Below are positions 9,001 to 63,129 of a DNA stretch of 64,000 bases, piece after piece. Position 1 is the stretch's first letter, and each line of letters starts with the position of its first letter. The notes below the pieces were generated by a model. That model was given only the letters and a program-made list of their open reading frames with translations, ran no database searches and was not told the origin of the DNA. Origin of the DNA: Polaribacter sp. (GTDB lineage: Bacteria > Bacteroidota > Bacteroidia > Flavobacteriales > Flavobacteriaceae); NCBI GenBank assembly GCA_028336245.1, contig JAOKTT010000005.1, positions 1 to 64,000 of the forward strand, given 5' to 3'. Position numbers and translations under genes: made by a program.

Positions 9001-9429
9001 TCTGGAAATAAATCCTTTAGTTTGCAAGCCTTCAAACAGTTTTACATCTGCATTTTTTTTGTTGGTAGTTAAACTGTACATTTTACCGGTATTTGTGCCA
9101 TTCGGTAAAATTAGACGTTCGTCATAAGGAGTATAGGTTTTGGTAAGAAACTCAGGAAGTCGAAAGTATTCTATGGTGATTTTTGGGTATTCTGCCGCAC
9201 TAATAATCAATGTTGCACTGTTAAATTCTATGTTATATTCCGTTTTTTCGATGGGTTTTAGTGCGCTGTCTACTATTTTAAAGTAGTATGGGTTTATTGC
9301 AACAGAGTCAAACCGAATGGTATCCTTTTGAATGCGAATTTTTTGAGATCTAAATTCCTTAGATACAGTTTGAGAATGGATTGAAAATCCAACAATCATA
9401 AACAAAAAAAAGAATTTTTTTTTAAACAT
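6046..9429 (-). CDS. Large outer-membrane beta-barrel surface protein of unknown function
   Basis: 1127 residues with a Sec signal peptide (MFKKKFFFLFMIVGFSIHSQ). The N-terminal ~110 residues look like a small beta domain. Next comes a region with the signature KGFISRGITSG and LDLEISGKLSDKVTLRANIWDTN (about 138-180), then IFIEMYSENWRVKAGDLSL. After about residue 330 a very long run of alternating hydrophobic and polar strands follows, ending in QLRALF, as in large barrels. A calcium-loop-like stretch DYNTDGVQDFDEFE is near residue 810. I recognise this as a conserved Bacteroidota envelope protein type but know no assigned function. It is not SprA, which is about twice as long. It is the first gene of a probable three-gene envelope operon. 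Confidence 0.8.
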   Translation of the reverse strand: MFKKKFFFLFMIVGFSIHSQTVSKEFRSQKIRIQKDTIRFDSVAINPYYFKIVDSALKPIEKTEYNIEFNSATLIISAAEYPKITIEYFRLPEFLTKTYTPYDERLILPNGTNTGKMYSLTTNKKNADVKLFEGLQTKGFISRGITSGTNQNAVTNAALDLEISGKLSDKVTLRANIWDTNIPIQENGYSQNLTDFDRIFIEMYSENWRVKAGDLSLKNQDSYFGSFTKQASGLEVGVKINEQLQVSAAGAIVRGKFNTYTIVGNEGNQGPYKVVGQNNEPNIIIIAGSEQVYINGIRIEKGEQKQYTIDYNLGEISFNTTFPITNDMRIWIDFQYSDKNYTRFVTYETATYKTEKFNISGFFYSESDAKNQPLQQALTTQQIEVLANAGNDTNLMFAENAFEAAFDENKILYKKIVNGAVENFEYSLNPSDTLYAVSFTNVGANAGNYILDTKNSSAIGNVYRYAGLNQGSYSPTNRLIPPTKSQIFIIKSDYNATNKTKLSSEIAVSTADANLFSTIDNNQNTGIAAKLGWQQVLIDKKWQLSSNIQYEFVQKNYKTEQGWEPVEFNRDWNLLTNNATKNYFQSTLNFANKKKDYLLYRYNHLNYQNTYAGNKHEFQSKIKLKKTTFFTDASFLTNTSALEDNSFLRAKATIEHAFNRSWIGGFTNLERNDRKNNISKNYISTSHRFKELETYIGVGDTAKVFAKFGFNYRNNDSIKSNEFKEINNRSSFYIESNLIKNKATDLRVYGNYRRTENNFSENEKSLNSRLIYNQKLFNNFINTSTLYETSSGNIARQEYVYLKTAPGMGYYTWIDYNTDGVQDFDEFEIAEFQDQANYLRVPKPNVRFIATQSAKFRQGVKLNFKQWENKKGLKNFISHFQNESFLSITNAQSRIGNSFNFNPFDFNEDKLIGLNLNIRNSLYFNRNLQKYSTTFTFGKLQNKQQYFIGAQSNNTKTNKIDFAHKFADFWLFDLMGKVSQNKLNTENFNNRNYKIESMEIHPKISFLYSSKNRLTAFYHYKNKENTLSEFQELKQQKFGLEYVYLKDNEQQISGNINVFLNNFIGDTNTPVAYEMLEGLQAGKNYTWALLFNKKLNSFLSLNLSYLGRKSQDSETIHTGSMQLRALF

Positions 9430-9483
9430 CTACAAGCTATAACTAAGAAACGTAAAAATAGTTTTTTTAATATGTAAATGCTT

Positions 9484-9975
9484 TTAAAATAAAGTGTGCT
9501 GTTTTAAAGGGTTTTCATGCGCTAACAGCCATTTTTTACGCCAAACTCCACCAGCATACCCTGTTAAAGATCGGTCAGAGGCAATAACCCTGTGACAGGG
9601 AATAACAATCCACAGTGGATTTTTACCATTCGCCATAGCCACAGCTCGTATGGCCTTTACATCTCCCAAAGCTTTACTTTGTTCTAAGTAACTTTTTGTT
9701 TTTCCAAAAGGTATTTTTAACAAACTCTTCCATACCTTTATTTGAAAAGCCGTTCCTTTGGGATTTACAGTGAGGTTGAAATGGTCCCTTTTTCCTTGAA
9801 AATAGGCTTCTAATTGAACAACACATTCCTGCAGACATAGAGGTGTTGAAAGTTGTATCAATTCCTCAGGAACGCTTTCTTCGTCTAGAACATATATGGA
9901 TTGCAGACCATTATGATCCCCTGTTATTTTTGCAATTCCAATGGGTGTTTTACAGTATGTAGTGTGTACAGTCAT
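9484..9975 (-). CDS. ogt: Methylated-DNA--[protein]-cysteine S-methyltransferase
   Basis: Suicide repair enzyme that transfers alkyl groups from O6-alkylguanine in DNA to its own cysteine. At 163 residues it is of Ogt type with no Ada domain. The active-site motif IPCHRVIASD is complete, with the acceptor Cys. The helix-turn-helix part (FGKTKSYLEQSKALG, AIRAVAMANGKNP, with the Arg finger) and the closing GYAGGVWRKKWLLAHE are present. It lies 54 bases before the large surface protein gene on the same strand, but is probably separately transcribed. No unusual features. Confidence 0.93.
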   Translation of the reverse strand: MTVHTTYCKTPIGIAKITGDHNGLQSIYVLDEESVPEELIQLSTPLCLQECVVQLEAYFQGKRDHFNLTVNPKGTAFQIKVWKSLLKIPFGKTKSYLEQSKALGDVKAIRAVAMANGKNPLWIVIPCHRVIASDRSLTGYAGGVWRKKWLLAHENPLKQHTLF

Positions 9976-10343
9976 TTTTTTTGATTAAAAGGCCTTTTAG
10001 TTCTATATGCAATAACAATAGGTATGCTATTCCTTTTTAAGGTTGTGCTCAAGTTAGGTTTGGTCCTATATATTCTTTTTTCATGTAGCTCTTTCCTGCG
10101 GCTCTTAAATCGAAAATAGTGAGCATGAAATTAACAATTATTTTACGCTTAAAATCAAAGATCAATCCAAAATAGAAGTGCTTGTAGAAATTTCAGTTTT
10201 ATTTTATTTCTGCCTAGCTTCACTTAAAAAAGGGATGCTTTATTTTGTGTGCTTTACTTGAAAAACCTTCCAAGAGCGCGCATCGTCTGCCTAGTATTTT
10301 TTGACATTCCTGCCCTGCTGTTTGGAAGCTTTTTATTAGTTTA
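9976..10343. other. 368-base intergenic stretch without a recognisable gene
   Basis: Many stops in all frames. I find no terminator, RNA gene or protein relic that I can name between ogt and the tatD-family gene. Confidence 0.5.
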
Positions 10344-11108
10344 TTAAATATTAAAAACAGCTATAGAATTTTGTGTAGTAATGGCGGATATTTCGTCAAA
10401 GGGAAGACCATAAATAGTAACTAACTTATCAATAACATTGGTAATAAATGCGCTTTCATTTCTTTTACCACGATAAGGAACGGGCGCCAAATAAGGGGCG
10501 TCTGTTTCTAGTACAAGATGTTGCAAGTCTATTTCTTTTAGAAAGGTATCAATCTTACCATTTTTAAAAGTGGCAACACCGCCAATTCCAAGTTTCATAT
10601 TGTAAGAGATGGCTTTTAAAGCCTGTTCTTTTGTTCCAGTAAAGCAATGAAAAATCCCTCTTAAATCGTCTCCTTTTTCAGCTTCTAAAATTTCAAAAAT
10701 AGCTTCAAATGCAGCTCTACAGTGAATTACTATTGGAAGTTTTTTTTCTTTTGCCCATTTAATTTGAGTTCTAAATGCCTCTTGTTGCTGTTTTAGAAAA
10801 GAGGTGTCCCAAAACAAATCGATTCCAATTTCTCCAAGCGCATAAAAATCTTTTTTATCAATCCACTCTTTGACATGTGCTAATTCTTCTAAGTAATTTT
10901 CTTTTACAGAAGTTGGGTGTAAACCCATCATTAAGTATACGTCTAAAGGAAAATCTTCTTCTAACTTGAGCATGCTTTTTGTGTGTGAAGAATCAATTGC
11001 AGGAATAAAAAATCGAGAAACACCTGCTTCTTTAGCGCGTTGTATCATCTCTTTTTGATCTTCATTAAACTGACTAGAATATAAATGCGTGTGAGTATCT
11101 GTAATCAT
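10344..11108 (-). CDS. TatD family metal-dependent DNase/hydrolase
   Basis: A 254-residue TIM-barrel metalloenzyme of the TatD family, usually 3'-5' exonuclease or deoxyribonuclease-like. The metal-binding TDTHTHL is at the very N-terminus. Further signatures are ALGEIGIDLFWDTS (Glu ligand), PIVIHCRAA (His), GIFHCFTG (His) and LETDAPYLAPVPYRGKRN (catalytic Asp and C-terminal signature). All expected ligands are present. It is divergent from the DEAD-box gene, with a TAATTTTG -7 element at 11131-11138 reading towards it. The actual substrate in the cell is not shown by sequence. Confidence 0.93.
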   Translation of the reverse strand: MITDTHTHLYSSQFNEDQKEMIQRAKEAGVSRFFIPAIDSSHTKSMLKLEEDFPLDVYLMMGLHPTSVKENYLEELAHVKEWIDKKDFYALGEIGIDLFWDTSFLKQQQEAFRTQIKWAKEKKLPIVIHCRAAFEAIFEILEAEKGDDLRGIFHCFTGTKEQALKAISYNMKLGIGGVATFKNGKIDTFLKEIDLQHLVLETDAPYLAPVPYRGKRNESAFITNVIDKLVTIYGLPFDEISAITTQNSIAVFNI

Positions 11109-48746: not shown

Positions 48747-50048
48747 ATGAGTAATTTAAAACCTGTTGTTGTATCAAAAAAGATACTAATTCCTTTTATT
48801 TTAGTAACTTTTTTATTTGCACTTTGGGGGTTTGCTAATGCTGTAACAGACCCTATGGTTCAAGCATTTAAAAAAGTACTAGAGCTTTCAAATTCTCAAG
48901 CGGCTTGGGTACAAATGGCATTTTATGGTGGTTATTTTTGTATGGCATTGCCAGCAGCTCTATTTATGCGAAAGTATTCATATAAAGTTGGTATTTTAAT
49001 AGGTTTAGCATTATATGCTACTGGAGCATTGTTATTTTATCCTGCTGCTCAATCAGAGAGTTTTATGTTTTTCTGTGTTGGATTATACATTTTAACATTT
49101 GGCTTAGCTTTTTTAGAAACAGCTGCGAATCCTTACATATTGGCTATGGGTGCAAAAGAAACAGCAACACAACGTTTAAACTTAGCACAAGCTTTTAACC
49201 CAGTGGGTTTAATCGCAGGATTAATAGTAGCACAACAATTTGTTTTAAAGAATTTGCAGTCTGATGATATTTCAAATTTTAGTACTTTAGACGAAGCCTC
49301 TAAAATTGCAATTAAAACGGCAGACTTAATGGTCATTCGCAACCCATATGTAATTTTAGGCATAGTAATTATTGGAATTTTTGTATTGTTTTTAGTTAGT
49401 AAAATGCCTCAATCTAAAGAAGAAAATGGTATGCCTAGTATTGGAGAGACCTTTAAAGCATTAGTTAAAAACACAAAATATATTTTAGGAGTATTATCTC
49501 AAATTTTATATGTAGGTGCTCAAATTATGTGTTGGACCTACATTTATCAATATGCGGAAGGTATAAGTATTGATAATGTTACTGCTGGTACATACCAATT
49601 AGTAGCATTTGGATTGTTTATTGTTGGTCGAGCTATTGGAACTTATTTACTAAAATTTATGAGCTCAGGAAAACTATTAATGTATTTTGCCATATTTGCT
49701 ATTGGTTGTGTTGCAGGGACCATTTTTATTCAAGGAATAGTTGGATTGTATTGTTTAGCAGGTGTTTCCTTTTTTATGTCTTTAATGTTTCCAACTATCT
49801 ATGGTATTGCATTAGGTGATTTAACAGAAGAGCAATCAAAAGTCGGTTCAGCAGGATTAGTAATGGCCATTGTAGGAGGTGCATTAATGCCAAAATTACA
49901 AGGTATGATTATTGATGCAGGTGGCAGTGGTGTTGCAGATACGAAAATCATGGGTGTTTCAGAGGTTAATTTTTCATTCATACTACCGCTATTATGTTTT
50001 GTTTATATAGCTTGGTATGGCCTTAGAGTTCACAAAAAACTTATATAA
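48747..50048 (+). CDS. MFS sugar transporter, FucP (L-fucose:H+ symporter) type
   Basis: A 433-residue inner-membrane permease with 12 predicted helices. FucP-type signatures: FALWGFANAVTDPMVQAFKK in helix 1, AAWVQMAFYGGYFCMALPAA, FLETAANPYILAMG and RLNLAQAFNPVGLIAG; late block SLMFPTIYGIALGDL and VGSAGLVMAIVGGALMP. In sugar loci this type brings monosaccharides into the cell. Fucose itself is not proven; related members carry other hexoses or amino sugars. It lies 73 bases behind the oxidoreductase gene. Confidence 0.92.
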   Translation: MSNLKPVVVSKKILIPFILVTFLFALWGFANAVTDPMVQAFKKVLELSNSQAAWVQMAFYGGYFCMALPAALFMRKYSYKVGILIGLALYATGALLFYPAAQSESFMFFCVGLYILTFGLAFLETAANPYILAMGAKETATQRLNLAQAFNPVGLIAGLIVAQQFVLKNLQSDDISNFSTLDEASKIAIKTADLMVIRNPYVILGIVIIGIFVLFLVSKMPQSKEENGMPSIGETFKALVKNTKYILGVLSQILYVGAQIMCWTYIYQYAEGISIDNVTAGTYQLVAFGLFIVGRAIGTYLLKFMSSGKLLMYFAIFAIGCVAGTIFIQGIVGLYCLAGVSFFMSLMFPTIYGIALGDLTEEQSKVGSAGLVMAIVGGALMPKLQGMIIDAGGSGVADTKIMGVSEVNFSFILPLLCFVYIAWYGLRVHKKLI

Positions 50049-50871: not shown

Positions 50872-51261
50872 TAATAATTTTAAATAAAACAACCGTAGTT
50901 TTCTTATTTATTTCAATTACAATTAACGCACAAGAAATGCACATTACTGGAAAAACATGGTCAATAATAATAGAAAATACAGAAGAAAATATAATCTCAA
51001 TGGTGGAAATTGCTATTACAAATAATATCTCTGTATATATTTATTCAACGCTTCCTGCGATTAATTTATTACAGTCACCTGAGTTTTAGGTAGCAAAAAA
51101 GTAGTGCAACTAAATAAGATTTTAAAGAAATATTGTGTTGAAAACGGTATAACTTATGTTGCGGACTTCTTATCAATGGCTGATTATGAAGGTGAATTTA
51201 ATATTACTGTTAATGTTAATAACCTAAAGCTGGGAAACAGTTTTTTTGCCCGCGGTGCTTA
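50872..51261 (+). pseudogene. Relic of an SGNH/GDSL-type esterase
   Basis: Directly behind the hydrolase gene, a degraded reading shows the end of a signal peptide (VVFLFISITINAQ), then a jump to late family blocks: ENIISMVEIAITNNISVYIYS, LPAINLLQSPEF followed by TAG, and after a shift in an A6 run VVQLNKILKKYCVENGITYV and DFLSMADYEG. The order matches GDSL lipases found in carbohydrate loci (EMAKANNIKVVLSSVLPA-type block and the late block before the Asp-His pair). The GDSL block, the start codon and the catalytic Asp-His end are missing. Confidence 0.6.
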
Positions 51262-51420
51262 ACTGCTTAAAGTTAAATTCAGTTTATGCCAAAATTCTTG
51301 AAGTCTACTATTATTTAATATTAAATGTAGCTATTTTTTTATTTTGTTTAGTTTATTATAATTTATAATAAACAAAAATTAACTATCTTTATAAAGTTAT
51401 TAAGACATTTTTTTAATAAA

Positions 51421-53979
51421 ATGAGAAAAAGTTTAATTAAATTATTATTTATAATTACTATCACATTCCCTTTTTTGGGGAGAGCACAAGGGATTCGTTT
51501 TAACTCCAGTGACAGTTCAATTATCAATAGAACTTCGTACAATGTTTTTGTCCAAAATCAACCAAGATTTGAAGGTGATTTTAATGTCGAATTTGATATG
51601 TCTATTTTAGATCCAAATATATTTGGATACATTTTTCATATAAAAGACAAAAACACCTCTACTTCATATTCATTGGCATATGTTGGTAAAATAGGAAATT
51701 TGGGTGAGATTAAACTTAATCGTGATGGGGTTAAGACATTGGTTACCGTTCCTTTAAAGAATGAATTACTTGGAGAAAGGAAATGGATGAAAATATCTTT
51801 AAACTTTAATCCAACAGTAAAAAAAATTACACTGGGAATTAATGATAAGGTATTTTCATTTAATGAAAATGAATTTAGCAACAGTATAATCCCTGAAATT
51901 TATTTTGGAAAACACGGAAGTGTTATCGATGTGCCTTCAATGTCAATAAAAAAGCTTAATATTAAAAATAAAAAGAATAAATACATATTTAATTTTAATG
52001 AAAGTGAAGGTAATGATGTTTTTGATTCTACTGATAATCTTTATGGAAATGTAAATCGCCCAAATTGGTTAATTAAAGAATCGTATCACTGGAAATTGCG
52101 GCACACAACAGCATTTAAAAAGGTAACATCTATTACTTTTGATGAAAACAATAGTAGGTTTATCTTTCAAAATGAGGACACTTTAAATTTTTATGACTTT
52201 AAAACTGAAAAAAATACTTTTCATAGTTTTAAAAATGAAATGCCCGTCTCTATGAGGCTCGGAAATAGTTTTTTAAATTCGGCTGAGAATAAATTATATG
52301 TGTATGAGTTATATGATGTTTTGCCTGAAAAACCTACAATTGCATCTATTAATTTAAATGACCCACAGTATTATTGGCAAACAAATAGTTTACTCAAACG
52401 ATCACCAGAATCGCATCATCACAATGCTTTTCTCGACTCAAAAAACAATCAATTAGTGATTTTTGGTGGTTATGGGCATATGCGTTTTACAAATGATTTC
52501 AATGCATACAATTTTGAAAATAATACATGGAAACAACTAACATTTACAGGAGACATCATTTCTCCTAGGTTCTTTTCTGGTGTAGCAAAACTTACGAAAC
52601 ATGAAATTTTAATATTTGGTGGTCAAGGTAATATAACAGGCGAACAAAGTATCGGTAAAACATACTACTACGATTGTCACAAAGTTAACCTATTAACAAA
52701 AAAAATAGAAAAACTATGGGAAATTGAGCAAGAAAACATAAACATGGTTTCAGCGAGAAATATTGTTATCACAAAAGATTCTTCTTCATTTTATGCATTA
52801 CGCTACCCAGAATATATTCCTTCCACCTCTTTACAATTGTATAAGTATTCAATAAAAGATGGGAGTCATCAAATTCTTGGCGATTATATACCCATGAATT
52901 CTGAAGAAATTCTTACAAATGCCAATTTATATATCAACAAATTAACTAATCAATTGTTTTGTACCACTCAAGAGTTTAAAGACGATGGTTCTAGTAAAAT
53001 AAATATTTATTCTTTAAATGCGCCTCCGGTTTCAAAAGAGGACATCTATAGTCCAAAAGTAAAAACAAATTCTAATATTGTTATAATATTAGTTATTCTC
53101 TTAGTAATTGTAAGCCTTTTATTTTTTATACACTTTATCATTAAAAAAAGAAAAAGAAATAAGGACGCAATTCAAGTTCAGGTTCAGAAAGTTTTAAAAC
53201 ACGACCAGGACACAAATAAGGAGATTACAATCGCTAATTCTATTATATTATTTGGAAGTTTCAAGGTCATTAATCGTTATGAAAAGGATATTTCTTATCT
53301 CTTTAGCCCAAAAATTAGGCAACTTTTTTTATTACTACTTTTTAGCAGCAATCAAAAAGATACAATTGGATTAACATCAGAATTAATTTATACAACAATA
53401 TGGCCAGATAGTACGCCCAAAAAAGCATCAAATTTAAAAAATGTAACGATTAGTCAATTAAGAAATATATTGACAGATATTGATGGATTAGAACTCATCT
53501 ATTCTAATGGGCGCTTTTTTATAGAATTTGAGGAAGCGTTTTATTGTGACTATTTTAGTTTCTTAACACAATTAAAAGCCATAAAAAATGATCTATTTGA
53601 TGAGAATTCATTAACGCAACTTGCTAAAATAATTAGTTCTAGGAAATTCTTACAATCAATTAATGATAAATGCTTTGATAAAGTTAAGAAAGATTTTGAA
53701 TATGAAGTTTTAAAATACATTCCTAATCAAATAAAACTACTTTATACAAATAAGGACTATGCACCTATAATTCCGTTAACAGAAGTTTTATTCAATATAG
53801 ATTCTTTAAACGAGACTGCTTTTTATTATAGAATACATACGTTACTTAAAATGAAAATGACTTTTAAGGCAAAAAAACAATTTAATTATTTTATAATTAA
53901 TTATAATAAAATAATGGGAGACAATTTTCCATATACTTATAAAGATGTTATGCGGCAAATTCCAGATAATTTAGAATAA
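51421..53979 (+). CDS. Membrane-spanning regulator: kelch sensor, TM helix, cytoplasmic winged-helix and TPR-like domain
   Basis: 852 residues. Signal peptide to about 23, then a concanavalin/LamG-like beta domain (about 25-170), then kelch-type repeats (NQLVIFGGYGHMRFTNDF, HEILIFGGQGNITGEQ) up to about 530. One strong membrane helix lies at about 552-574 (IVIILVILLVIVSLLFFIHF), followed by a basic stop-transfer KKRKR. The cytoplasmic part has an OmpR/SARP-like winged helix (IILFGSFKVINR, FSPKIRQLFLLLLFSSNQKD, ASNLKNVTISQLRNIL, LELIYSNGRFFIEF) and ~150 C-terminal helical residues like the transcriptional-activator TPR domain. There is no kinase or receiver. I infer a one-component regulator that senses an envelope ligand and drives the susCD genes next to it. 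Confidence 0.8.
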   Translation: MRKSLIKLLFIITITFPFLGRAQGIRFNSSDSSIINRTSYNVFVQNQPRFEGDFNVEFDMSILDPNIFGYIFHIKDKNTSTSYSLAYVGKIGNLGEIKLNRDGVKTLVTVPLKNELLGERKWMKISLNFNPTVKKITLGINDKVFSFNENEFSNSIIPEIYFGKHGSVIDVPSMSIKKLNIKNKKNKYIFNFNESEGNDVFDSTDNLYGNVNRPNWLIKESYHWKLRHTTAFKKVTSITFDENNSRFIFQNEDTLNFYDFKTEKNTFHSFKNEMPVSMRLGNSFLNSAENKLYVYELYDVLPEKPTIASINLNDPQYYWQTNSLLKRSPESHHHNAFLDSKNNQLVIFGGYGHMRFTNDFNAYNFENNTWKQLTFTGDIISPRFFSGVAKLTKHEILIFGGQGNITGEQSIGKTYYYDCHKVNLLTKKIEKLWEIEQENINMVSARNIVITKDSSSFYALRYPEYIPSTSLQLYKYSIKDGSHQILGDYIPMNSEEILTNANLYINKLTNQLFCTTQEFKDDGSSKINIYSLNAPPVSKEDIYSPKVKTNSNIVIILVILLVIVSLLFFIHFIIKKRKRNKDAIQVQVQKVLKHDQDTNKEITIANSIILFGSFKVINRYEKDISYLFSPKIRQLFLLLLFSSNQKDTIGLTSELIYTTIWPDSTPKKASNLKNVTISQLRNILTDIDGLELIYSNGRFFIEFEEAFYCDYFSFLTQLKAIKNDLFDENSLTQLAKIISSRKFLQSINDKCFDKVKKDFEYEVLKYIPNQIKLLYTNKDYAPIIPLTEVLFNIDSLNETAFYYRIHTLLKMKMTFKAKKQFNYFIINYNKIMGDNFPYTYKDVMRQIPDNLE

Positions 53980-54375: not shown

Positions 54376-54576
54376 TAACGCACTGATTATGGTGTTTTTT
54401 TTGTTTACTATTAATAAGATTAATTCATAATTAAGTAATAGTTAATAATTAATTAATTAACAAATTAAGCTATTGCATATATATTTATAAAATAATTTAT
54501 ACTCTTTTGTGTTTTTTAAATTCGTTAACTAATAGTCTTTAAATTTCAATTAATAACATAAAACAAAAATACAAAG

Positions 54577-54692
54577 ACAATTAATCATAATAATTTAAGA
54601 ACATGAAACAAAAACAATTAATTAATGTGAACAATCAATTAATCAAAACAATTTAAAAACATGAAACAAAAACAATTAATTAGTTTAAACAA
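54577..54692 (+). repeat. 58-bp tandem duplication of the susC start region
   Basis: Two consecutive units of 58 bases (54577-54634 and 54635-54692). Each contains the same AT-rich leader CAATTAATCA...AATTTAA(A/G)AAC followed by an ATG and the same codons for MKQKQLI. The second ATG (54661) starts susC; the first (54603) starts a short ORF. Confidence 0.85.
54603..54656 (+). CDS. 17-codon leader ORF before susC
   Basis: Reads MKQKQLINVNNQLIKTI and stops four bases before the susC start. Its first seven residues equal those of SusC, because it arose from the 58-bp duplication. It has the same upstream sequence as susC and so may be translated. It could couple or weaken translation of susC, or be a neutral by-product. 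Confidence 0.45.
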   Translation: MKQKQLINVNNQLIKTI

Positions 54693-57600
54693 TGTGTTTC
54701 ACACGTTGTCTCGACTTAAGTCAAATCTAAGTTTATCCCTTTTTTTTGTTGCACTATTTGCTGTTTTATCTCAGGGATATTCCCAGGTAACAATTTCCGG
54801 TAGTATTTCAGATGTTAGTGGTACTCCTTTAATAGGAACAAGTGTAGTTGAAAAGGGAACCAGTAATGGAACCCAATCAGACTTCGATGGAAATTTTCTA
54901 ATTGAAAATGTAAAAAATGATGGAACCTTAATTTTTAGTTACCTAGGGTTTAAATCTATTGAAGTTTCAGTTGCAGGAAAATCGACAATCAATGTTATAC
55001 TTCAAGAGGATCTTAACAATTTAGATGAAGTGGTAATAATAGGATATGGTAGTCAGAAAAAATCTGATCTTACTGGAGCAGTCGGCAGAGTGAAGGAAAG
55101 CCAATTAATGGAACGTCCTGTTGCTACAATAAATCAAGCACTAGCAGGAAAAGTTGCTGGAGTTCAAATTAATACAGCTAGTGGTAGACCAGGCGGTAGA
55201 ACAAAAGTGCGTATTAGAGGTATAAGTTCAATCAATACGGGTAATGATCCTCTCTATGTAGTAGATGGAGTTCAACTGCCGCAGGGTGCAGCCACACAAG
55301 GTCAAGGTAACTCTGTAATAGATTATATTAATCCAGCTGATATTGTTTCAATAGAGGTTTTAAAAGACGCTTCAGCAACGGCTATATATGGATCCAGAGG
55401 TGCAAATGGTGTTATATTAGTTTCAACAAAAAAAGGCAAATCGGGAGAAACTAAGTTTACCTATAATTCCGAATTTTTTATAAATTCCTATGGTCCTAAT
55501 TCGATCCCCGATGTATTGAATTCAGAACAATTTCAAATGGTTGAGCAATTAGCTTGGGAAAATTCTGAGAAATTTGATCCTACGGGATGGGCAGCAGGGA
55601 ATTACGTAAATCAAGAGCCTAATCAAAAAAGGCAGGGTGCTTTTCTTGGAGACCTTGTTAATGAACTTTTTGATTCTAATGGTAAAGCTAATTATGATAC
55701 AGATTGGTATGATGAGCTATTACAACATAAGGTATCTCAAAATCATCAGTTTGGATTTTCTGGAGGTAACGAAAAAACAACCTTTAGTGCCTCTGTTGGT
55801 TTAAGAGATGAAAGAGGCCTTCTTATAAATTCTTACGTAAAAAGATACTCCACAAGATTTAATATGGAGAGTGAAGTTAATTCATGGTTAAAAATAGGTG
55901 GAACAGTAGATTTTAGCGTACGACAAGAAAGATTTCAAGATACTGGCGAATGGGTATTTGCTAATGCAACTAGAGGTTTCCCATTTATGCCAGTTCAATA
56001 TGCAACCGGAAACAATCCATTCTTTCCTCCATGGTTTTTAAACTATGCAACTAATTTAGAATATGGACAAGGTACTGCCATGGCAGGTGATTTTATGTGG
56101 AATCCAGTAATGGATTTAAAAGATCGAGAATACACCACTGATACCCACAATTTTACTGGTAGTTTCTTTACAAATATTAAGCTTTCTACGGATTTAGAAA
56201 TGAAAACAATTGTTGCTTCAAATGTACTAAATCAAGGAAGAAAAATATTTTTTCCAGGATATTTTAATGGTGGAAATAATGGGGCTATTCAAGGTCAATC
56301 AAGAAGTATTTTTTATTCAGTTGAAAACTATTTAACCTATACAAAGGAAATTGATGAAAATAATTCAATAACAGCTTTATTAGGAGCTTCATGGCAACAA
56401 ACTGACCGAAATTATTTCCAAGGCGATGGATATGGCACCCCTTCAGATGGCTACGGTCCTAACAATCTAGGAGCGGCATCTTTTAAAAATTCAGCATCAT
56501 CTATGGAAGCTGAATCGCTTAATTCTTATTTTACTAGAATTAATTATAATTTGAAAGACAAATATCTTTTAACTTTCACTGCAAGAGCAGATGGATCCTC
56601 TAAGTTTGGGGCAGCAAATAAATGGGCTTATTTTCCTTCAGCAGCTGCTGCCTGGAAAATATCTGAGGAAGACTTTCTTGCCGACAATACTCAAATATCA
56701 AACCTTAAGCTTAGAGCAAGTTACGGTCAAACGGGTAACTCAAGTATAGCCGCTTACTCTTCGGAAGCTCAACTGGGTCCTGGAGCTAATATTGGCGGAA
56801 GTAATATTCCTGGATATACAGCTGCTTTTGGGAGCAGTTCAGCAGGAGGAACTGGGCTACTTACTCTTGAAAACTCTGATTTAAGATGGGAGGTTGTAAC
56901 ACAGTATGACATTGGAGTTGAACTGGGACTATTTGACAATAGAATCAATTTGGAATTAGACTATTATAATAGAAAAACAACCGATATGCTGTTGAATGCT
57001 CCAATTCCAGCAACAAGCGGATTCAGTGTTTTAACACAAAATATTGGATCAATGGTAAATAAAGGTTTCGAATTGAGTTTAAATTCAACAAATATTGATA
57101 CTCCTGACTTTACATGGAATTCAACTTTTAATATTTCGATGAATACAAATGAAGTACTTTCACTCGCTTCACCGTCCGATATTTTTGGAGTTGGATCAGG
57201 TGATTATCTTGGTGGTGGTTCGATCATTAGAATAGGTGAAGCTATGGGTTCTATGTATGGATTTACTCGTTTAGGAGTCTGGGGTACAGAGGAAGCTGCA
57301 GAGGCGGCCAAATATAATTTATTACCAGGAGACGTAAAACATAAAGACTTCAATGGTGATTATGTAATTGATAATGATGATAGATCTATAATTGGGAATG
57401 GATATGCCGATGCCTATGGGACCTTTGTAAATTATTTTACATATAAAAACTTTGATTTAACAATTGATCTTCAATATTCTATTGGTAACGATGTTGCTGA
57501 CCTTGCATTACATCAGGGTGAAAACGAAGTAGGAAGAGCCAATAATTACATAACGGTATTAGATGCTTGGACGCCTGATAATCAAAATACAATGATTCCA

Positions 57601-57921
57601 CAACTAAGAAATTCCTCTGCTGGATTTGTGTCATTATACGATTCTCACATGGTAAAAGATGCTTCTTTTCTTCGTGGAAATAACTTGATATTTGGATATA
57701 CATTTAAACCTGAATTACTACAACGTATAAACTTAAAGAATTTAAGAATATATGGTTCGGCTCAGAATTTCTTTTTAGTAACGAATAAAGATTTAATGGG
57801 AGATCCAGAAGTAGATGACAAAAACGCATTTGGAGGTTCAGGAGTTGCTTCACAAGGAGTGAAGTGGTATGATTATCCAAGATCCTCAACTTTTACGCTA
57901 GGATTACAAATTGGACTTTAA
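54661..57921 (+). CDS. SusC/RagA family TonB-dependent outer-membrane transporter
   Basis: A 1086-residue TonB-dependent channel that imports oligosaccharides (or peptides) together with a SusD lipoprotein. Signal peptide to about residue 40 (ending QGYSQ). Next comes the CarboxypepD-regulatory-like domain (VTISGSISDVSGTPLIGTSV, YLGFKSIEVSVAGKS). The SusC marker follows: LDEVVIIGYGSQKKSDLTGA with the TonB box region, then the plug (GKVAGVQINTASGRPGG, LYVVDGVQLP, IEVLKDASATAIYGSRGANG) and a 22-strand barrel to the end. It is next to susD with a 26-base gap. Confidence 0.96.
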   Translation: MKQKQLISLNNVFHTLSRLKSNLSLSLFFVALFAVLSQGYSQVTISGSISDVSGTPLIGTSVVEKGTSNGTQSDFDGNFLIENVKNDGTLIFSYLGFKSIEVSVAGKSTINVILQEDLNNLDEVVIIGYGSQKKSDLTGAVGRVKESQLMERPVATINQALAGKVAGVQINTASGRPGGRTKVRIRGISSINTGNDPLYVVDGVQLPQGAATQGQGNSVIDYINPADIVSIEVLKDASATAIYGSRGANGVILVSTKKGKSGETKFTYNSEFFINSYGPNSIPDVLNSEQFQMVEQLAWENSEKFDPTGWAAGNYVNQEPNQKRQGAFLGDLVNELFDSNGKANYDTDWYDELLQHKVSQNHQFGFSGGNEKTTFSASVGLRDERGLLINSYVKRYSTRFNMESEVNSWLKIGGTVDFSVRQERFQDTGEWVFANATRGFPFMPVQYATGNNPFFPPWFLNYATNLEYGQGTAMAGDFMWNPVMDLKDREYTTDTHNFTGSFFTNIKLSTDLEMKTIVASNVLNQGRKIFFPGYFNGGNNGAIQGQSRSIFYSVENYLTYTKEIDENNSITALLGASWQQTDRNYFQGDGYGTPSDGYGPNNLGAASFKNSASSMEAESLNSYFTRINYNLKDKYLLTFTARADGSSKFGAANKWAYFPSAAAAWKISEEDFLADNTQISNLKLRASYGQTGNSSIAAYSSEAQLGPGANIGGSNIPGYTAAFGSSSAGGTGLLTLENSDLRWEVVTQYDIGVELGLFDNRINLELDYYNRKTTDMLLNAPIPATSGFSVLTQNIGSMVNKGFELSLNSTNIDTPDFTWNSTFNISMNTNEVLSLASPSDIFGVGSGDYLGGGSIIRIGEAMGSMYGFTRLGVWGTEEAAEAAKYNLLPGDVKHKDFNGDYVIDNDDRSIIGNGYADAYGTFVNYFTYKNFDLTIDLQYSIGNDVADLALHQGENEVGRANNYITVLDAWTPDNQNTMIPQLRNSSAGFVSLYDSHMVKDASFLRGNNLIFGYTFKPELLQRINLKNLRIYGSAQNFFLVTNKDLMGDPEVDDKNAFGGSGVASQGVKWYDYPRSSTFTLGLQIGL

Positions 57922-57947: not shown

Positions 57948-59483
57948 ATGAAAATTTTTAAAATAAAAGGTTTAAATAGAGCATTAACTATAGCGCTCGT
58001 AACCACAACTATATTAAGTTGTTCAGATTTTCTAGAGGAAAATAACCAATCCTCTTTAAATCCTGATTCTTTTTATAAAACAGGGACTCATGCTGAATCT
58101 GCTTTAAACGCAGTTTATGCAACTACAAGAGATATTTTCGGTGGGTTTTCCGGTGGTAATTCCAGTAATTGGCATTTATTAGAAGCAGTAACAGGCCAGT
58201 CGATAAATAATAGCTCTAGTAATCCAGACTTGAATAGTTTAGCATCATTGTCTTATAATTCTAATTTAATACATGCAAGAAATGTATGGGCAGGAACTTA
58301 TAAGCTTATTGGAAACGCAAATATGGTAATTGAAAATGTTCCAGATATTTTTATGTCAGAGGCTAGGAAAAAACAAATTTTAGGAGAAGCCTATTTCCTT
58401 AGAGCTTGGGCTTATTTTAATGCTGTGAGAATATGGGGAGATATCCCATTGCTAACTTCACCTGTAGGTACGGGTTCTCCAGATTTTTATGCTGAACGAA
58501 CTTCACAAAGCATCGTATACGATCAAATTGTGTTTGATTTACAATTTGCTGAAACAGCAGGATTACCATTTATTGATCAAAGTGGTAGGGTTTCTATCGC
58601 AGCTGTAAAGTCTTTACTATCTAAAGTTTATCTTACAATGGCTGGACACCCGCTAAACAAAACGGAACATTATGCAGATGCAGCAGAAAAGGCCAAAGAA
58701 GTAATTGACAATGGTGGATTATCTCTTTTTGATACGTACGGAGAAATATTTTTAGAAAGTAATGAAAATAAAGGTGAACACATTTTTAGTATACAATATG
58801 CGCCGAATGTAAGTGCAAACTTCGAATCATTAAGTTTTCTCCCTCCGAAAAACATTACAAAAGGCGGTGCTCTTGGTTGGCAAACAAATTTGCCTGAAAC
58901 TAATTTTTATAATTCATTTGAAAGTGGAGATAAACGAAAAAATAATCGTGAAGGTTGGTTTTATACTGATTATTTTTTGGGTGGAAACGGAGCGCTTACT
59001 GACTTAGGTAGTCCTCATATTTTTAAAGCCTTCAATGTAGCGAATTTCGGAAGTGATACTACTGAGGGCAATGGCCTAGGTGACTTTCTGAATTTTTCAG
59101 TTATTCGTTTTGCTGAGGTATTGCTTATTTATGCGGAAGCATCAAATGAGGTTTCTGGACCTACCACAGCTGCAATTGATGCTATTAAAAAGTTGAGAGA
59201 CAGAGCAGGGTTAACAACAGCAACCTCTTTATCAAAAGATTTATTCAGAGAATTAATTTGGAAAGAAAGATGGCATGAGTTGTGTTATGAGCGAGTAACT
59301 TGGTTTGATATGGTTCGTCTTAGAAAGGTATTTAACAGCAAAACAGGTGATTTCGACAATTTTGTGGGTCATACTAATCTTAGTTCAAATCAAGCTTTTC
59401 AGGAAAAACATTTGCTATTTCCAATACCTGCGCTGGAAATGGTTAATAATCCAAATTTGACTCAAAACCTAGGATATAATTAA
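57948..59483 (+). CDS. RagB/SusD family nutrient-binding outer-membrane lipoprotein
   Basis: 511 residues, surface lipoprotein forming the lid of the SusC channel. Lipobox at ILSCSDFLEE. Family signatures: ESALNAVYATTRDIFGG, RKKQILGEAYFLRAWAYFN, VRIWGDIPLLT, AAVKSLLSKVYLTMAG, FSVIRFAEVLLIYAEASNE, LRDRAGLTT and the C-terminal ELIWKERWHELCYERVTWFD with FPIPALEMVNNPNLTQNLGY. It is complete. Ligand not deducible from sequence. Confidence 0.96.
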   Translation: MKIFKIKGLNRALTIALVTTTILSCSDFLEENNQSSLNPDSFYKTGTHAESALNAVYATTRDIFGGFSGGNSSNWHLLEAVTGQSINNSSSNPDLNSLASLSYNSNLIHARNVWAGTYKLIGNANMVIENVPDIFMSEARKKQILGEAYFLRAWAYFNAVRIWGDIPLLTSPVGTGSPDFYAERTSQSIVYDQIVFDLQFAETAGLPFIDQSGRVSIAAVKSLLSKVYLTMAGHPLNKTEHYADAAEKAKEVIDNGGLSLFDTYGEIFLESNENKGEHIFSIQYAPNVSANFESLSFLPPKNITKGGALGWQTNLPETNFYNSFESGDKRKNNREGWFYTDYFLGGNGALTDLGSPHIFKAFNVANFGSDTTEGNGLGDFLNFSVIRFAEVLLIYAEASNEVSGPTTAAIDAIKKLRDRAGLTTATSLSKDLFRELIWKERWHELCYERVTWFDMVRLRKVFNSKTGDFDNFVGHTNLSSNQAFQEKHLLFPIPALEMVNNPNLTQNLGYN

Positions 59484-59901
59484 TATAAACTCATTTTTAC
59501 CAAAAGCTTATTTTGGTGAGAATACACAAAATATAGTAAGTGTTTTTCAAAATTTAATTAGTTGATTAATATTTTGAGAATATAATTAGTATTAATAGAT
59601 TTACTTTGTTTTTTTAGTTATTCTAGCAGATTTACTTCGATAAAATAGTTTTATTGATTGTATTTCTGCTAGTTTTATTTTAAATATTATTGGTCTAAAA
59701 TTAAGTTCTATTATATTTTTATCATCAGATATATCTTAAAAATTAAAAAAACTATTTAAATTTTAAGTAATGAAAAGTTAATAATCATTTTAACTAAAGT
59801 AATCTATATGTTTGGAAACGAATCAGCACAAACCGGTAGTTATAGTAAAGAAAATCCTTCAAACATGTCTGGGATTAAGTTCTAAAATTAGTAATAATCT
59901 T
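59484..59901 (+). other. Stem-loop and AT-rich gap after susD
   Basis: Behind the susD stop lies ACCAAAA-GCTTA-TTTTGGT (59499-59517), a perfect 7-bp stem without a T run on the plus strand, perhaps a 3' stabilising or processing hairpin. The rest is very AT-rich. At 59812-59856 a frame reads NQHKPVVIVKKIL, similar to the N-terminus of the MFS transporter at 48747 (LKPVVVSKKIL), a possible relic. Otherwise I see nothing. Confidence 0.4.
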
Positions 59902-60831
59902 ATGAAAATTATTAATTTTTTAATTCTTAGCCTTTTAGTTTTAACTGTTTCCTGTAAATCGAAAATAGACAAAATAACTAAGAAAAAAATTCATAAAATT
60001 GAAGTACATGGCCATCGAGGAGAACGTGGAAATTTACCAGAGAATTCTATTGAAGCTTTTTTAGGAGCTCTTCATAAAGGTGTTAATGTTCTTGAATTAG
60101 ATATTGTAATTTCTAAAGACCGCAAGGTAGTAGTGTCACACGAACCGTTTATGTCTTGGGTATACATGTCGAAACCTTCTGGCGAACCTATAAATAAAGA
60201 TGAAGAAAGAAACTTTAATTTATACCAAATGGATTATGATAGCATTAGAATTTTTGATGGCGGTTCAAGAGGGAATTATAAGTTTCCGCAACAACAAAAG
60301 TTAAAGACGTATAAACCACTTTTAAGTGAAGTTTTTAATGTAATTGAAACTGAAATTAAGAATAATAATCTAGAGCAGGTAAAATATAATATTGAAATTA
60401 AATCGGCTGAAGATGTTTCTGATGTGTATTTACCACAACCTGATGATTTTGTTAATTTAGTTATGCAGATTATAATTGAAAATAATATGGAACACAGAAT
60501 CAATATTCAGTCGTTCGATCCTACCATTCTTAAAATCTTACATAAAAAGTATCCCGAAATTGAAATAGCATATTTGGTTTCAAAAGGTAATATTCAAAAT
60601 AATTTAAAATATCTTGATTTTAGACCTAATATTTACAGTCCGAATTTTAAATTAATAAGTAATCAACAATCGGTCGATTCTCTAAAAGATATGAGTATAA
60701 AAGTGATTCCATGGACTGTAAACGAAGAAGAGGATATAAAAAAACAAATTGAATTGCAAGTAGATGGCATTATTACTGATTACCCAGAACGTGTTATCAT
60801 TCAATGTAAAAGTATAACGCAACAAAATTAA
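59902..60831 (+). CDS. Glycerophosphodiester phosphodiesterase-family lipoprotein
   Basis: An exported lipoprotein of about 309 residues with the GDPD TIM barrel. The frame is open to a TTG at 59812, but the ATG at 59902 begins MKIINFLILSLLVLTVSCKS with a lipobox Cys, so that is the start. Catalytic motifs are complete: HGHRGERGNLPENSIEAF (His, Arg, Glu), VLELDIVISKDRKVVVSHEP (Glu, Asp and second His), NIEIKS and IPWTVNEEEDI. The family splits glycerophosphodiesters into an alcohol and glycerol phosphate. In a susCD locus it may trim glycerophosphoryl groups from an imported glycan or wall polymer, which is inference. Confidence 0.9.
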   Translation: MKIINFLILSLLVLTVSCKSKIDKITKKKIHKIEVHGHRGERGNLPENSIEAFLGALHKGVNVLELDIVISKDRKVVVSHEPFMSWVYMSKPSGEPINKDEERNFNLYQMDYDSIRIFDGGSRGNYKFPQQQKLKTYKPLLSEVFNVIETEIKNNNLEQVKYNIEIKSAEDVSDVYLPQPDDFVNLVMQIIIENNMEHRINIQSFDPTILKILHKKYPEIEIAYLVSKGNIQNNLKYLDFRPNIYSPNFKLISNQQSVDSLKDMSIKVIPWTVNEEEDIKKQIELQVDGIITDYPERVIIQCKSITQQN

Positions 60832-61200: not shown

Positions 61201-63129
61201 ATGTTAAAAAGTAATATTGATAAGGCAACAGGATTCGAAAAACGATTTGAAAATATAAATACCTTAGTTTATAAGAACTCAATTGATGCATCAAAAGCGG
61301 TTGCAAAAGAAATAGCCGACCTAATAAAAATAAAGCAAGCACAAAAGCAAACATGTGTTCTTGGCTTGGCAACAGGCTCATCTCCAAAAGGTTTATATGC
61401 AGAGTTGGTGCGTCTTCATAAGGAAGAGGGCTTAAGCTTTAAAAATGTAGTATCATTCAATTTGGATGAATACTATCCTATGGCGCCAGATTCTATAAAT
61501 AGTTATGTACGTTTCATGGAAGAACAATTATTTAAGCATGTAGATATACTCCCGGAGAACTGTCACATACCTGATGGTACTTTGGCTAAAGAAATTATTT
61601 CAGATTATTGTAACGAATATGAAGTAAAAATTAAAGCTTTAGGCGGTATCGATTTACAAATTTTAGGTATTGGAGGTAATGGACATATTGGTTTTAACGA
61701 ATCTGGAGCACTTCAAAACTCAAAAACAAGGTTAGTCGCTTTAGACCATATCACAAGAGTAGCAGCCAGTGGCGATTTTTCTGGTTTAGATAAAACACCA
61801 AGGACAGCAATTACCTTAGGAGTGAAAAAAATCATGGAAGCTAAAAGGATTATACTTATGGCTTGGGGTGAAGGTAAATCTAATATTATAAAAGTATCAG
61901 TAGAGGGCCCTATTGCTAGGCAAGTGCCAGCATCCTATGTACAAGAGCATAATAATGCAACCTTTGTTTTAGACCAAGCTGCAGGATCAAAATTAACACG
62001 TATTAATAGGCCATGGCTTGTAGAAGAAATTGTTTGGACTGATAATCTCATTAGAAAAGCCGTTTTAGGGTTGGCAATTCATTTGAATAAACCCATTTTA
62101 ATGTTGACAGATGCTGATTATATTGAAAATGGGATGAGTGATTTATTGGCTGATTCAGGTCCTGCTTACGATATCAATATCAAAATATTTAACAATCTAC
62201 AAAACACTATTACGGGTTGGCCAGGAGGTAAACCCAATGCAGATGATATTAAACGCCCTGAAAGAGCAGCACCAGCAAAAAAAAGAGTGCTGATTTTTAG
62301 TCCACATCCAGATGATGATATTATTAGTATGGGGGGTACTTTTAAAAGGTTACAAGAGCAAGGGCACGAAGTGCATGTAGGGTATCAAACGTCTGGGAAC
62401 ATTGCAGTTTCTGATGATGAAGCTTTAAGGTTTACCAGTTTTGTATGCGATTACAATGATAAGTTTGGAATAAAAGGCGATGAAGCTCAAAAAATATACA
62501 AAAAAGTAATCACATTTCTTAAAAACAAAAAGGCAAGTGAGATTGATATTCAAGATGTAAGATATATTAAAGGCTTAATAAGAAAAGGAGAAGCAAAATC
62601 TACATGTTGTTTTATTGGTATTCCAGAAAGCCAGATTCATTTTATGGAATTACCATTTTATGAAACAGGTGCAATAAAAAAGAATCCAGTTGAAACAAAG
62701 GATGTGAAAATAACTTCAGATCTAATCGAGAAAATAAAACCACATCAAATATATGCAGCGGGTGATTTGCAAGATCCACATGGTACGCATAAGGTATGTT
62801 TAGATGTTATTTTTGAAGCTGTGAAACAATTAAAAACTAAAAAATTTATGAATGATTGCTGGGTTTGGCTTTATCGAGGTGCATGGCAAGAATGGGGCAT
62901 TGATGAAATTGAGATGGCTGTACCTATGGGACCAGACCAAGTACTTGAAAAGAGAAAAGGTATTTTCAAACATCAATCGCAAAAAGATGGTGTTGTGTTT
63001 CAAGGAACAGATAGTAGAGAATTTTGGCAGCGTGCGGAAGATAGAAATAAAGAAACTGCAGATTTGTACGATCAATTAGGTATGTCTCGATATGCCGCTA
63101 TGGAAGCTTTCGTAAGGTGGAAATATTAA
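61201..63129 (+). CDS. nagB: Glucosamine-6-phosphate deaminase fused to a PIG-L/LmbE deacetylase-like domain
   Basis: 642 residues, two domains. Residues ~20-280 are NagB: LATGSSPKGLYAELVRLH, FNLDEYYPMAPDSINSYVRF, LGIGGNGHIGFNESG and LDKTPRTAITLGVK; this part turns glucosamine-6-phosphate into fructose-6-phosphate and ammonia. Residues ~365-620 are a PIG-L/LmbE domain with FSPHPDDDIISMGGTFKRLQ, whose His-Pro-Asp-Asp binds zinc, and DLQDPHGTHKVC with the late His pair. Such long NagB proteins are known in Bacteroidota. A deacetylase step on N-acetylated sugar by the second domain is plausible but not shown. It is the last intact gene of the locus. Confidence 0.93.
   Translation: MLKSNIDKATGFEKRFENINTLVYKNSIDASKAVAKEIADLIKIKQAQKQTCVLGLATGSSPKGLYAELVRLHKEEGLSFKNVVSFNLDEYYPMAPDSINSYVRFMEEQLFKHVDILPENCHIPDGTLAKEIISDYCNEYEVKIKALGGIDLQILGIGGNGHIGFNESGALQNSKTRLVALDHITRVAASGDFSGLDKTPRTAITLGVKKIMEAKRIILMAWGEGKSNIIKVSVEGPIARQVPASYVQEHNNATFVLDQAAGSKLTRINRPWLVEEIVWTDNLIRKAVLGLAIHLNKPILMLTDADYIENGMSDLLADSGPAYDINIKIFNNLQNTITGWPGGKPNADDIKRPERAAPAKKRVLIFSPHPDDDIISMGGTFKRLQEQGHEVHVGYQTSGNIAVSDDEALRFTSFVCDYNDKFGIKGDEAQKIYKKVITFLKNKKASEIDIQDVRYIKGLIRKGEAKSTCCFIGIPESQIHFMELPFYETGAIKKNPVETKDVKITSDLIEKIKPHQIYAAGDLQDPHGTHKVCLDVIFEAVKQLKTKKFMNDCWVWLYRGAWQEWGIDEIEMAVPMGPDQVLEKRKGIFKHQSQKDGVVFQGTDSREFWQRAEDRNKETADLYDQLGMSRYAAMEAFVRWKY

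Follow-up and report, generated by a model that had tools for sequence, protein, structure and literature searches.

ToxR, CadC and TcpP combine an OmpR-type winged helix with a membrane helix and a sensor in the periplasm, the DNA-binding part being at the N-terminus; these regulators are not known to have a BTAD. SusR, which controls the sus genes, is described in PMC3878776 as anchored in the membrane, with its sensor in the periplasm and its C-terminal DNA-binding domain in the cytoplasm. In the operators of SARP activators, as described in PMC10936776, direct repeats follow one another at 11 or 22 bp, and the 3' repeat is 8 bp from the -10 element. Here we describe a gene of Polaribacter sp. 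found at positions 51421-53979 of a 64,000-nucleotide stretch of DNA (contig JAOKTT010000005.1, positions 1 to 64,000, assembly GCA_028336245.1; the window below, all features of which lie on the + strand). By predicted topology, its 852-residue product has a sensor outside, a single membrane helix and a SARP-type module inside. We conclude that the product is very likely a one-component transmembrane activator, whose outside kelch sensor is coupled to a cytoplasmic SARP module that would bind a phased TTAA array and recruit RNA polymerase to the nearby susC gene.

The topology is known from SusR and the output fold from SARPs, while no description of the combination was found: neither a kelch-membrane-SARP protein nor a SARP at polysaccharide utilization loci (PULs) turned up in the open-access PMC literature, a weak form of absence. 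Like the SARPs AfsR and EmbR, the protein has a winged helix plus BTAD fold; unlike in them, the module here comes after an outside sensor and a membrane helix, in a protein of Bacteroidota. Sequence identity to the two is 13-15%. The order is the reverse of that in ToxR and CadC, running from propeller through membrane helix (residues 553-571) to winged helix. Going by the description of SusR, it shares with that regulator a periplasmic sensor, a membrane anchor and a cytoplasmic DNA-binding part at susCD loci, topology and DNA binding being predicted in our case; the regulator topology therefore has a precedent in SusR (PMC3878776). The presumed task, glycan-responsive control of susCD, is that of hybrid two-component systems (HTCS) and of extracytoplasmic function (ECF) sigma/anti-sigma pairs. 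Unlike HTCS, the window protein has no histidine kinase, receiver or AraC-type helix-turn-helix match in Pfam at E <= 1, and unlike ECF pairs it has no sigma-related or FecR-type match at this cut-off, the latter comparison concerning this protein only. An earlier, sequence-only reading of the window had stated that kinase and receiver are missing, in agreement with this search. It had also set the protein apart from the usual susCD regulators, which holds for HTCS and sigma systems as judged by Pfam but not for SusR, whose topology, as described in PMC3878776, is of the same kind.

The open reading frame (ORF) starts with ATG, and the domain order proposed in the sequence-only reading (beta domain, kelch propeller, one membrane helix, winged helix and helical tail) was confirmed by Pfam, AlphaFold models and hydropathy. 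An AlphaFold2 model of residues 1-561, calculated with 80 sequences (mean pLDDT 91.3, pTM 0.88), contains an all-beta domain at about residues 23-215 (51487-52065) followed by a propeller at about residues 218-538 (52072-53034). The propeller has a significant Pfam match to kelch repeats (PF24681, residues 327-431, E 3.2e-15, 56.5 bits with a cut-off of 50), and the best solved matches of the model are kelch propellers (for the LZTR1 kelch domain, VIA Z 23.4, root-mean-square deviation (rmsd) 3.4 over 276 residues). A Pfam scan of 80 N-terminal sequences, from the window protein and 79 relatives, revealed a kelch family in all 80, although the proteins had been recognized by their C-terminal part; the domain combination thus exceeds chance. 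The all-beta domain is possibly a LamG/ConA-like sandwich. Laminin_G_2 and Laminin_G_3 match 8 and 6 of the 80 sequences, respectively, at E <= 0.1, and there is no Pfam match to this domain in the window protein, whose first domain was not searched alone. Of the "kelch/LamG-like" sensor proposed earlier, the kelch part is therefore well founded in both Pfam and fold, while the LamG-like part stands less firmly. The proposed signal peptide had a similarly mixed outcome: the N-terminal hydrophobic stretch (residues 1-22, 51421-51486) looks like one by eye and forms a helix at residues 2-15 in the model, but it stays below the 19-residue hydropathy threshold, which is reached by 61 of the 80 sequences. 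The one strong membrane helix of the window protein comprises residues 553-571 (53077-53133) and is followed by the basic sequence KKRKRNK. Lysine and arginine are more numerous after the membrane helix than before it in 71 of the 78 sequences that have such a helix, and the SARP module is accordingly placed in the cytoplasm.

The C-terminal part is predicted, by modelling, to be a SARP module attached to this membrane sensor. The AlphaFold2 model of residues 586-852 (81 sequences; pLDDT 90.6, pTM 0.85) consists of a winged helix and a set of helices, which upholds the earlier proposal of a winged-helix fold for residues 600-852. The best Foldseek matches are AfsR (8hvr and 8k60) and EmbR (2fez and 2ff4), with E values from 2e-6 to 1e-5 and the next row at 1.3e-2. 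VIA comparison yields Z scores from 14.8 (rmsd 5.3, 233 residues aligned) to 13.8 for AfsR and EmbR and 9.1 for the first unrelated row; a chain of a ToxR/TcpP complex, covering the winged helix only, scores 8.2. Because AfsR and EmbR are the closest solved structures, an OmpR-type winged helix (residues ~605-705, 53233-53535) and a BTAD helical domain (residues ~710-845, 53548-53955) were assigned, and the tail once described as TPR-like is the BTAD of this module. When 81 C-terminal sequences were scanned one by one at E <= 1, BTAD was the commonest Pfam family (25 sequences, best 2.8e-5) and Trans_reg_C the second (22 sequences, best 0.0044); an NCBIfam AfsR/SARP BagI/FevR model matched eight sequences, the window protein not being one of them.

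The source assembly is 1.38 Mb in size and 53.6% complete. A scan of genome contigs with the window protein as a single sequence revealed no relatives; an alignment-based scan, with patterns built from the SARP part and from neither kelch nor susC, revealed 319. The counts given here concern the best 80 of these, whose loci were read, the sensors of the other 239 lying outside them. The 80 loci come from Flavobacteriaceae, Mucilaginibacter, Pedobacter, Chitinophagaceae, Draconibacterium, Dyadobacter, Tannerellaceae and others. With the own genome counted, 5 of the 97 genomes in the first set had matches; with kelch-only matches included as well, the figures were 41 of 397 genomes at the family level, 21 of 166 at the genus level and 20 of 395 at the class level. 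A match was also present in five plasmid records: two annotate it as hypothetical and one as LamG-like, while the remaining two show no feature at that place. That the C-terminal part is a DNA-binding output is well supported by locus L047, where an unrelated LytTR domain (Pfam E 7e-17) takes the place of the SARP module behind a membrane helix and a kelch sensor that belongs to the same family (31% identical), in a gene (8828-10966) that directly precedes susC and susD.

In the window, the regulator gene is followed by genes for a susC-type TonB-dependent receptor (54661-57921) and a susD-type lipoprotein (57948-59483), both predicted targets. The neighbourhoods of 81 regulators in 80 loci were examined, with genes of at least 200 aa counted. 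susC was the next gene in 32 of 78 cases, the second next in 8 of 70 and the previous one in 5 of 71, as opposed to 9 of 425 at a distance of three or more genes. Overall, susC or susD lies no more than three genes away from 45 of the 81 regulators; 18 lack both, 13 lack both but reach a contig end, and 5 are cut on both sides. The link with susCD loci suggested by the sequence-only reading thus extends to other genomes, though not to the closest relatives, L076-L080, in which no susC or susD adjoins the gene. The neighbours of the regulator are glycoside hydrolase genes of families GH3 and GH92 and a sialate-esterase-like gene in L076, and an esterase-like gene in L080.

Evenly spaced TTAA cores are present in susC upstream regions of the relatives' loci. 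The 711 TTAA words of the window include one phased array only, located before susC (54420-54468), inside the interval 54380-54660 that had been singled out in the sequence-only reading. Its five cores, at 54420, 54431, 54442, 54453 and 54465 (steps 11-11-11-12), constitute the predicted operator, and 11 bases after the last TTAA lies a predicted -7-like box, TATATTTA (54480-54487); the -7 consensus of Bacteroidetes is TAnnTTTG. In the whole 1.38-Mb assembly there is one exact copy of the four-copy 11-bp pattern and none of its reversed control. If one mismatch is allowed, a second site appears on the same contig beyond the window end, at 64187-64235, with the mismatch in the first core, the same steps (11-11-11-12) and a perfect TATATTTG 11 bases further on. 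The ORF that starts, as listed, 359 bases after this array encodes a GH92 protein and is cut by the contig end; since it begins inside the GH92 N-terminal profile, the listed start is uncertain.

The same phasing is seen across loci. In 39 regions, 58 pairs of TTAA[CT] 12 bp apart were observed versus 0.9 in dinucleotide shuffles. Arrays of three TTAA cores at steps of 11 or 12 were found in 31 of 44 susC promoters within three genes of a regulator, while shuffles of these promoters contained 0.43 on average and 3 at most. The numbers elsewhere were 17 of 125 for other promoters at a distance of up to two genes, 5 of 64 for regions upstream of the regulator, 5 of 162 for farther promoters, 1 of 4 for farther susC genes and 0 of 54 for convergent gaps. 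Triples with a constant step of 12 occur in 27 of the 44 susC regions, while every step or step pair tested outside 11-12 occurs in 0 to 6. Counted by locus, 52 of the 80 named ones have intergenic three-core arrays (37 of the 47 closer loci, L076-L122, and 15 of the 33 distant ones, L123-L155). Five-core arrays with window-like steps precede GH92 genes in L076, with a -7-like box at 11 bases, and in L244. In L079, six cores (steps 12-12-11-11-12 towards the gene), also with a box at 11, precede a gene similar in length and position to the GH92 genes of relatives.

Several separate intergenic TTAA arrays were noticed before different operons in L243 (G505) and L247, one of them preceding a GH3 gene (L247), and in L246 a five-core array is flanked by a GH92 gene and a gene of 882 aa. 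Multiple arrays in these loci suggest multi-operon regulons.

A total of 101 array-gene pairs picked regardless of promoter boxes were scanned for TAnnTTTG-like boxes (at least 5/6), divergent arrays being counted once per gene and the loci being related. Counted from the last core, the box starts at a distance of 10 bases in 11 cases, of 11 bases in 21 and of 12 bases in 25 (57 of 101), while any other offset from 0 to 44 accounts for at most 5. Canonical TAnnTTTG boxes are present in just 4 of 39 susC upstream regions, and the relation to the looser box emerged after anchoring on the arrays. In sequence layout, the predicted operators resemble those of SARPs (PMC10936776) in having repeats about one helical turn apart that end just upstream of a -7-like box, with a distance from TTAA to box of 10-12 bases here; they differ in comprising three to six repeats, at steps of 11 or 12.

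The array and the regulator also occur together. A pattern derived for one form of the array, TTAAYCC-N5-TTAACCC-N5-TTAA, was found exactly once in 20 of 21 genomes with relatives and was absent from one; the control was absent from all. In L083, L090 and L092, where the regulator is not beside susC, a remote susCD operon follows the single site of the genome at a distance of 76-129 bases. Among 120 genomes of the genus concerned, 51 contained the site, once each, with one control match overall. A full-length relative was present in 65 of the 120 genomes (up to 8 candidates being scored per genome), and the site was found in 51 of these 65 and in none of the other 55. The 51 are exactly the genomes with a lower-scoring, window-like regulator class (51 of 51 versus 0 of 69), as defined by a cut (alignment score < 710 bits) set after the scores were seen; the 14 genomes holding only the other regulator class lack the site. 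Because site and regulator lie within 6 kb in 40 of the 51 genomes, shared inheritance contributes to this co-occurrence. In the other 11 genomes both are present as well, but on different contigs or separated by 131 kb to 6.7 Mb in contig coordinates. By sequence, TTAACCC is a group-specific form of the array: it was found in 0 of 36 genomes in the genus of G882, though 7 have the regulator. In that genus, 11-bp TTAA triples lie near the gene in L179, L248 and L250-L253 but not in L249.

Several results weigh against this interpretation. The window protein itself has no BTAD or Trans_reg_C match at E <= 1, and its C-terminal part matches no Pfam family. PDB profile searches with C-terminal alignments returned no SARP (best E 0.1), so that the module is recognized by fold comparison alone, and its likeness to AfsR and EmbR is one of fold only, at the low identity given above and an rmsd of ~5. 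The array counts are not independent, since many loci are related. There is no intergenic three-core array in 28 of the 80 named loci, some of which have short contigs or a target elsewhere; L044 and the close relative L078 lack one, the latter in a looser scan as well. Arrays of the Mucilaginibacter group have a step of 12 instead of 11, and no -7-like box stands where one is expected after the five-core array of L244. With one mismatch, the four-copy pattern gives 2 sites versus 2 reversed-control matches in the own genome and 88 versus 67 in 12 flavobacterial genomes, and it does not exceed the reversed control in 7 of these 12, the own genome included.

The architecture, the fold class, the recurrence, the array with its distance to the -7-like box, and the joint occurrence of array and regulator are computational results; DNA binding, a ligand, an oligomer and activation rather than repression are what we infer in the following scheme. 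The beta-sandwich and kelch propeller would sense a glycan fragment outside the inner membrane, perhaps an alpha-mannoside or a GlcNAc (N-acetylglucosamine)-containing oligosaccharide, to judge from the neighbouring genes only. The single membrane helix would couple the sensor to the cytoplasmic SARP module, several protomers of which would bind side by side, one per repeat, on the phased TTAA array; SARPs are characterized by a side-by-side dimer in contact with sigma region 4 and RNA polymerase. Ending 11 bases before the -7-like box, the array would replace a -33 element, and RNA polymerase would be recruited to susC; the protein would also bind at a second promoter, near the GH92 mannosidase gene just past the window end. 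One modification of this scheme is that regulated proteolysis must free the SARP module as a soluble activator. Such cleavage would fit the single membrane helix and the basic linker, and a freed factor would more easily reach the sites that are far from the gene in 11 of the 51 genomes, but SusR is described in PMC3878776 as a membrane protein that binds promoters, and we consider such a release step unlikely. It is more doubtful still that the bound protein acts as a repressor, blocking the promoter until glycan is sensed: the array does adjoin the -7-like box, where a bound protein could obstruct polymerase, but it covers the expected -33 region and keeps a distance of 10-12 bases to the box, as in SARP activators. 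Least probable is that the regulator acts elsewhere and the arrays either serve as binding sites for another factor or are AT-rich elements of promoters, for although TTAA is palindromic and common in AT-rich DNA, and array and regulator may be inherited as one block where they lie within 6 kb (40 of 51 genomes), this is opposed by the preference of the 44 susC regions for step 12, by the empty convergent gaps, by the near absence of arrays from loci with a second type of sensor (1 of 30, despite more TTAA), by their absence from the LytTR-output locus L047, and by the 51 of 51 co-occurrence with its 11 unlinked cases.

The direct recruitment scheme might be extended from the kelch proteins to a wider group. 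BLAST clustering of the 40 ORFs with a SARP module from the first genome searches separated 10 with a kelch sensor from 30 with a second, unrelated-looking sensor, and both ORFs of the latter kind that were scanned (L048 and L056) contain a LamG domain. In the 30 second-sensor loci, susC or susD was present in the fetched stretch of 3. We regard it as moderately probable that a Bacteroidota-wide class of membrane-anchored SARPs exists, with exchangeable sensors (kelch, LamG) and a SARP or, once, LytTR output, and, as part of the same proposal, that its kelch members read arrays of three to six repeats at the -33 position, glycan signals thereby reaching transcription without kinase, sigma factor or proteolysis. 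Eight second-sensor relatives (L008, L009, L049, L051, L055, L056, L063 and L072) precede genes for 422-aa and ~1130-aa products, mostly followed, as judged by length, by a ~570-aa gene; no TTAA arrays were found in these loci. The 422-aa product is Gfo/Idh/MocA-like by eye, and this is perhaps a sugar-oxidation locus.

Other genes of the window may belong to the same locus. An MFS transporter gene (48747-50048) lies upstream of the regulator, and after susD come a glycerophosphodiester phosphodiesterase-like gene (59812-60831), whose membership is assumed from position, and a gene that by Pfam fuses glucosamine-6-phosphate isomerase and PIG-L domains (61201-63129). A fusion of the same two domains adjoins the regulator in L083, and genes of similar length are near the regulator in L090, L092 and L102, domains having been scanned in L083 and the window. 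The recurring fusion hints at GlcNAc-containing substrates. An esterase-like gene also lies upstream of the regulator, and between the two (50872-51420) are two broken reading-frame pieces that in three-frame translation look, by eye, like remains of an SGNH-type esterase. A second copy of the susC start region lies 58 bp upstream of the first (54551-54700; ATGs at 54603 and 54661) and creates a leader ORF of 17 codons (54603-54656), and a weaker repeat with a 37-bp spacing lies just before the duplication.

Glycan foraging by Bacteroidota drives much of the carbon turnover in the sea, in soil and in the gut, and to our knowledge many PULs have no assigned regulator. A recurrent regulator class with a predicted operator can be searched for in genomes, and the proposed one-protein signal path is testable with a short DNA fragment. 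The SARP mode of activation, that of actinobacterial antibiotic genes, would here be placed on a membrane receptor in another phylum.
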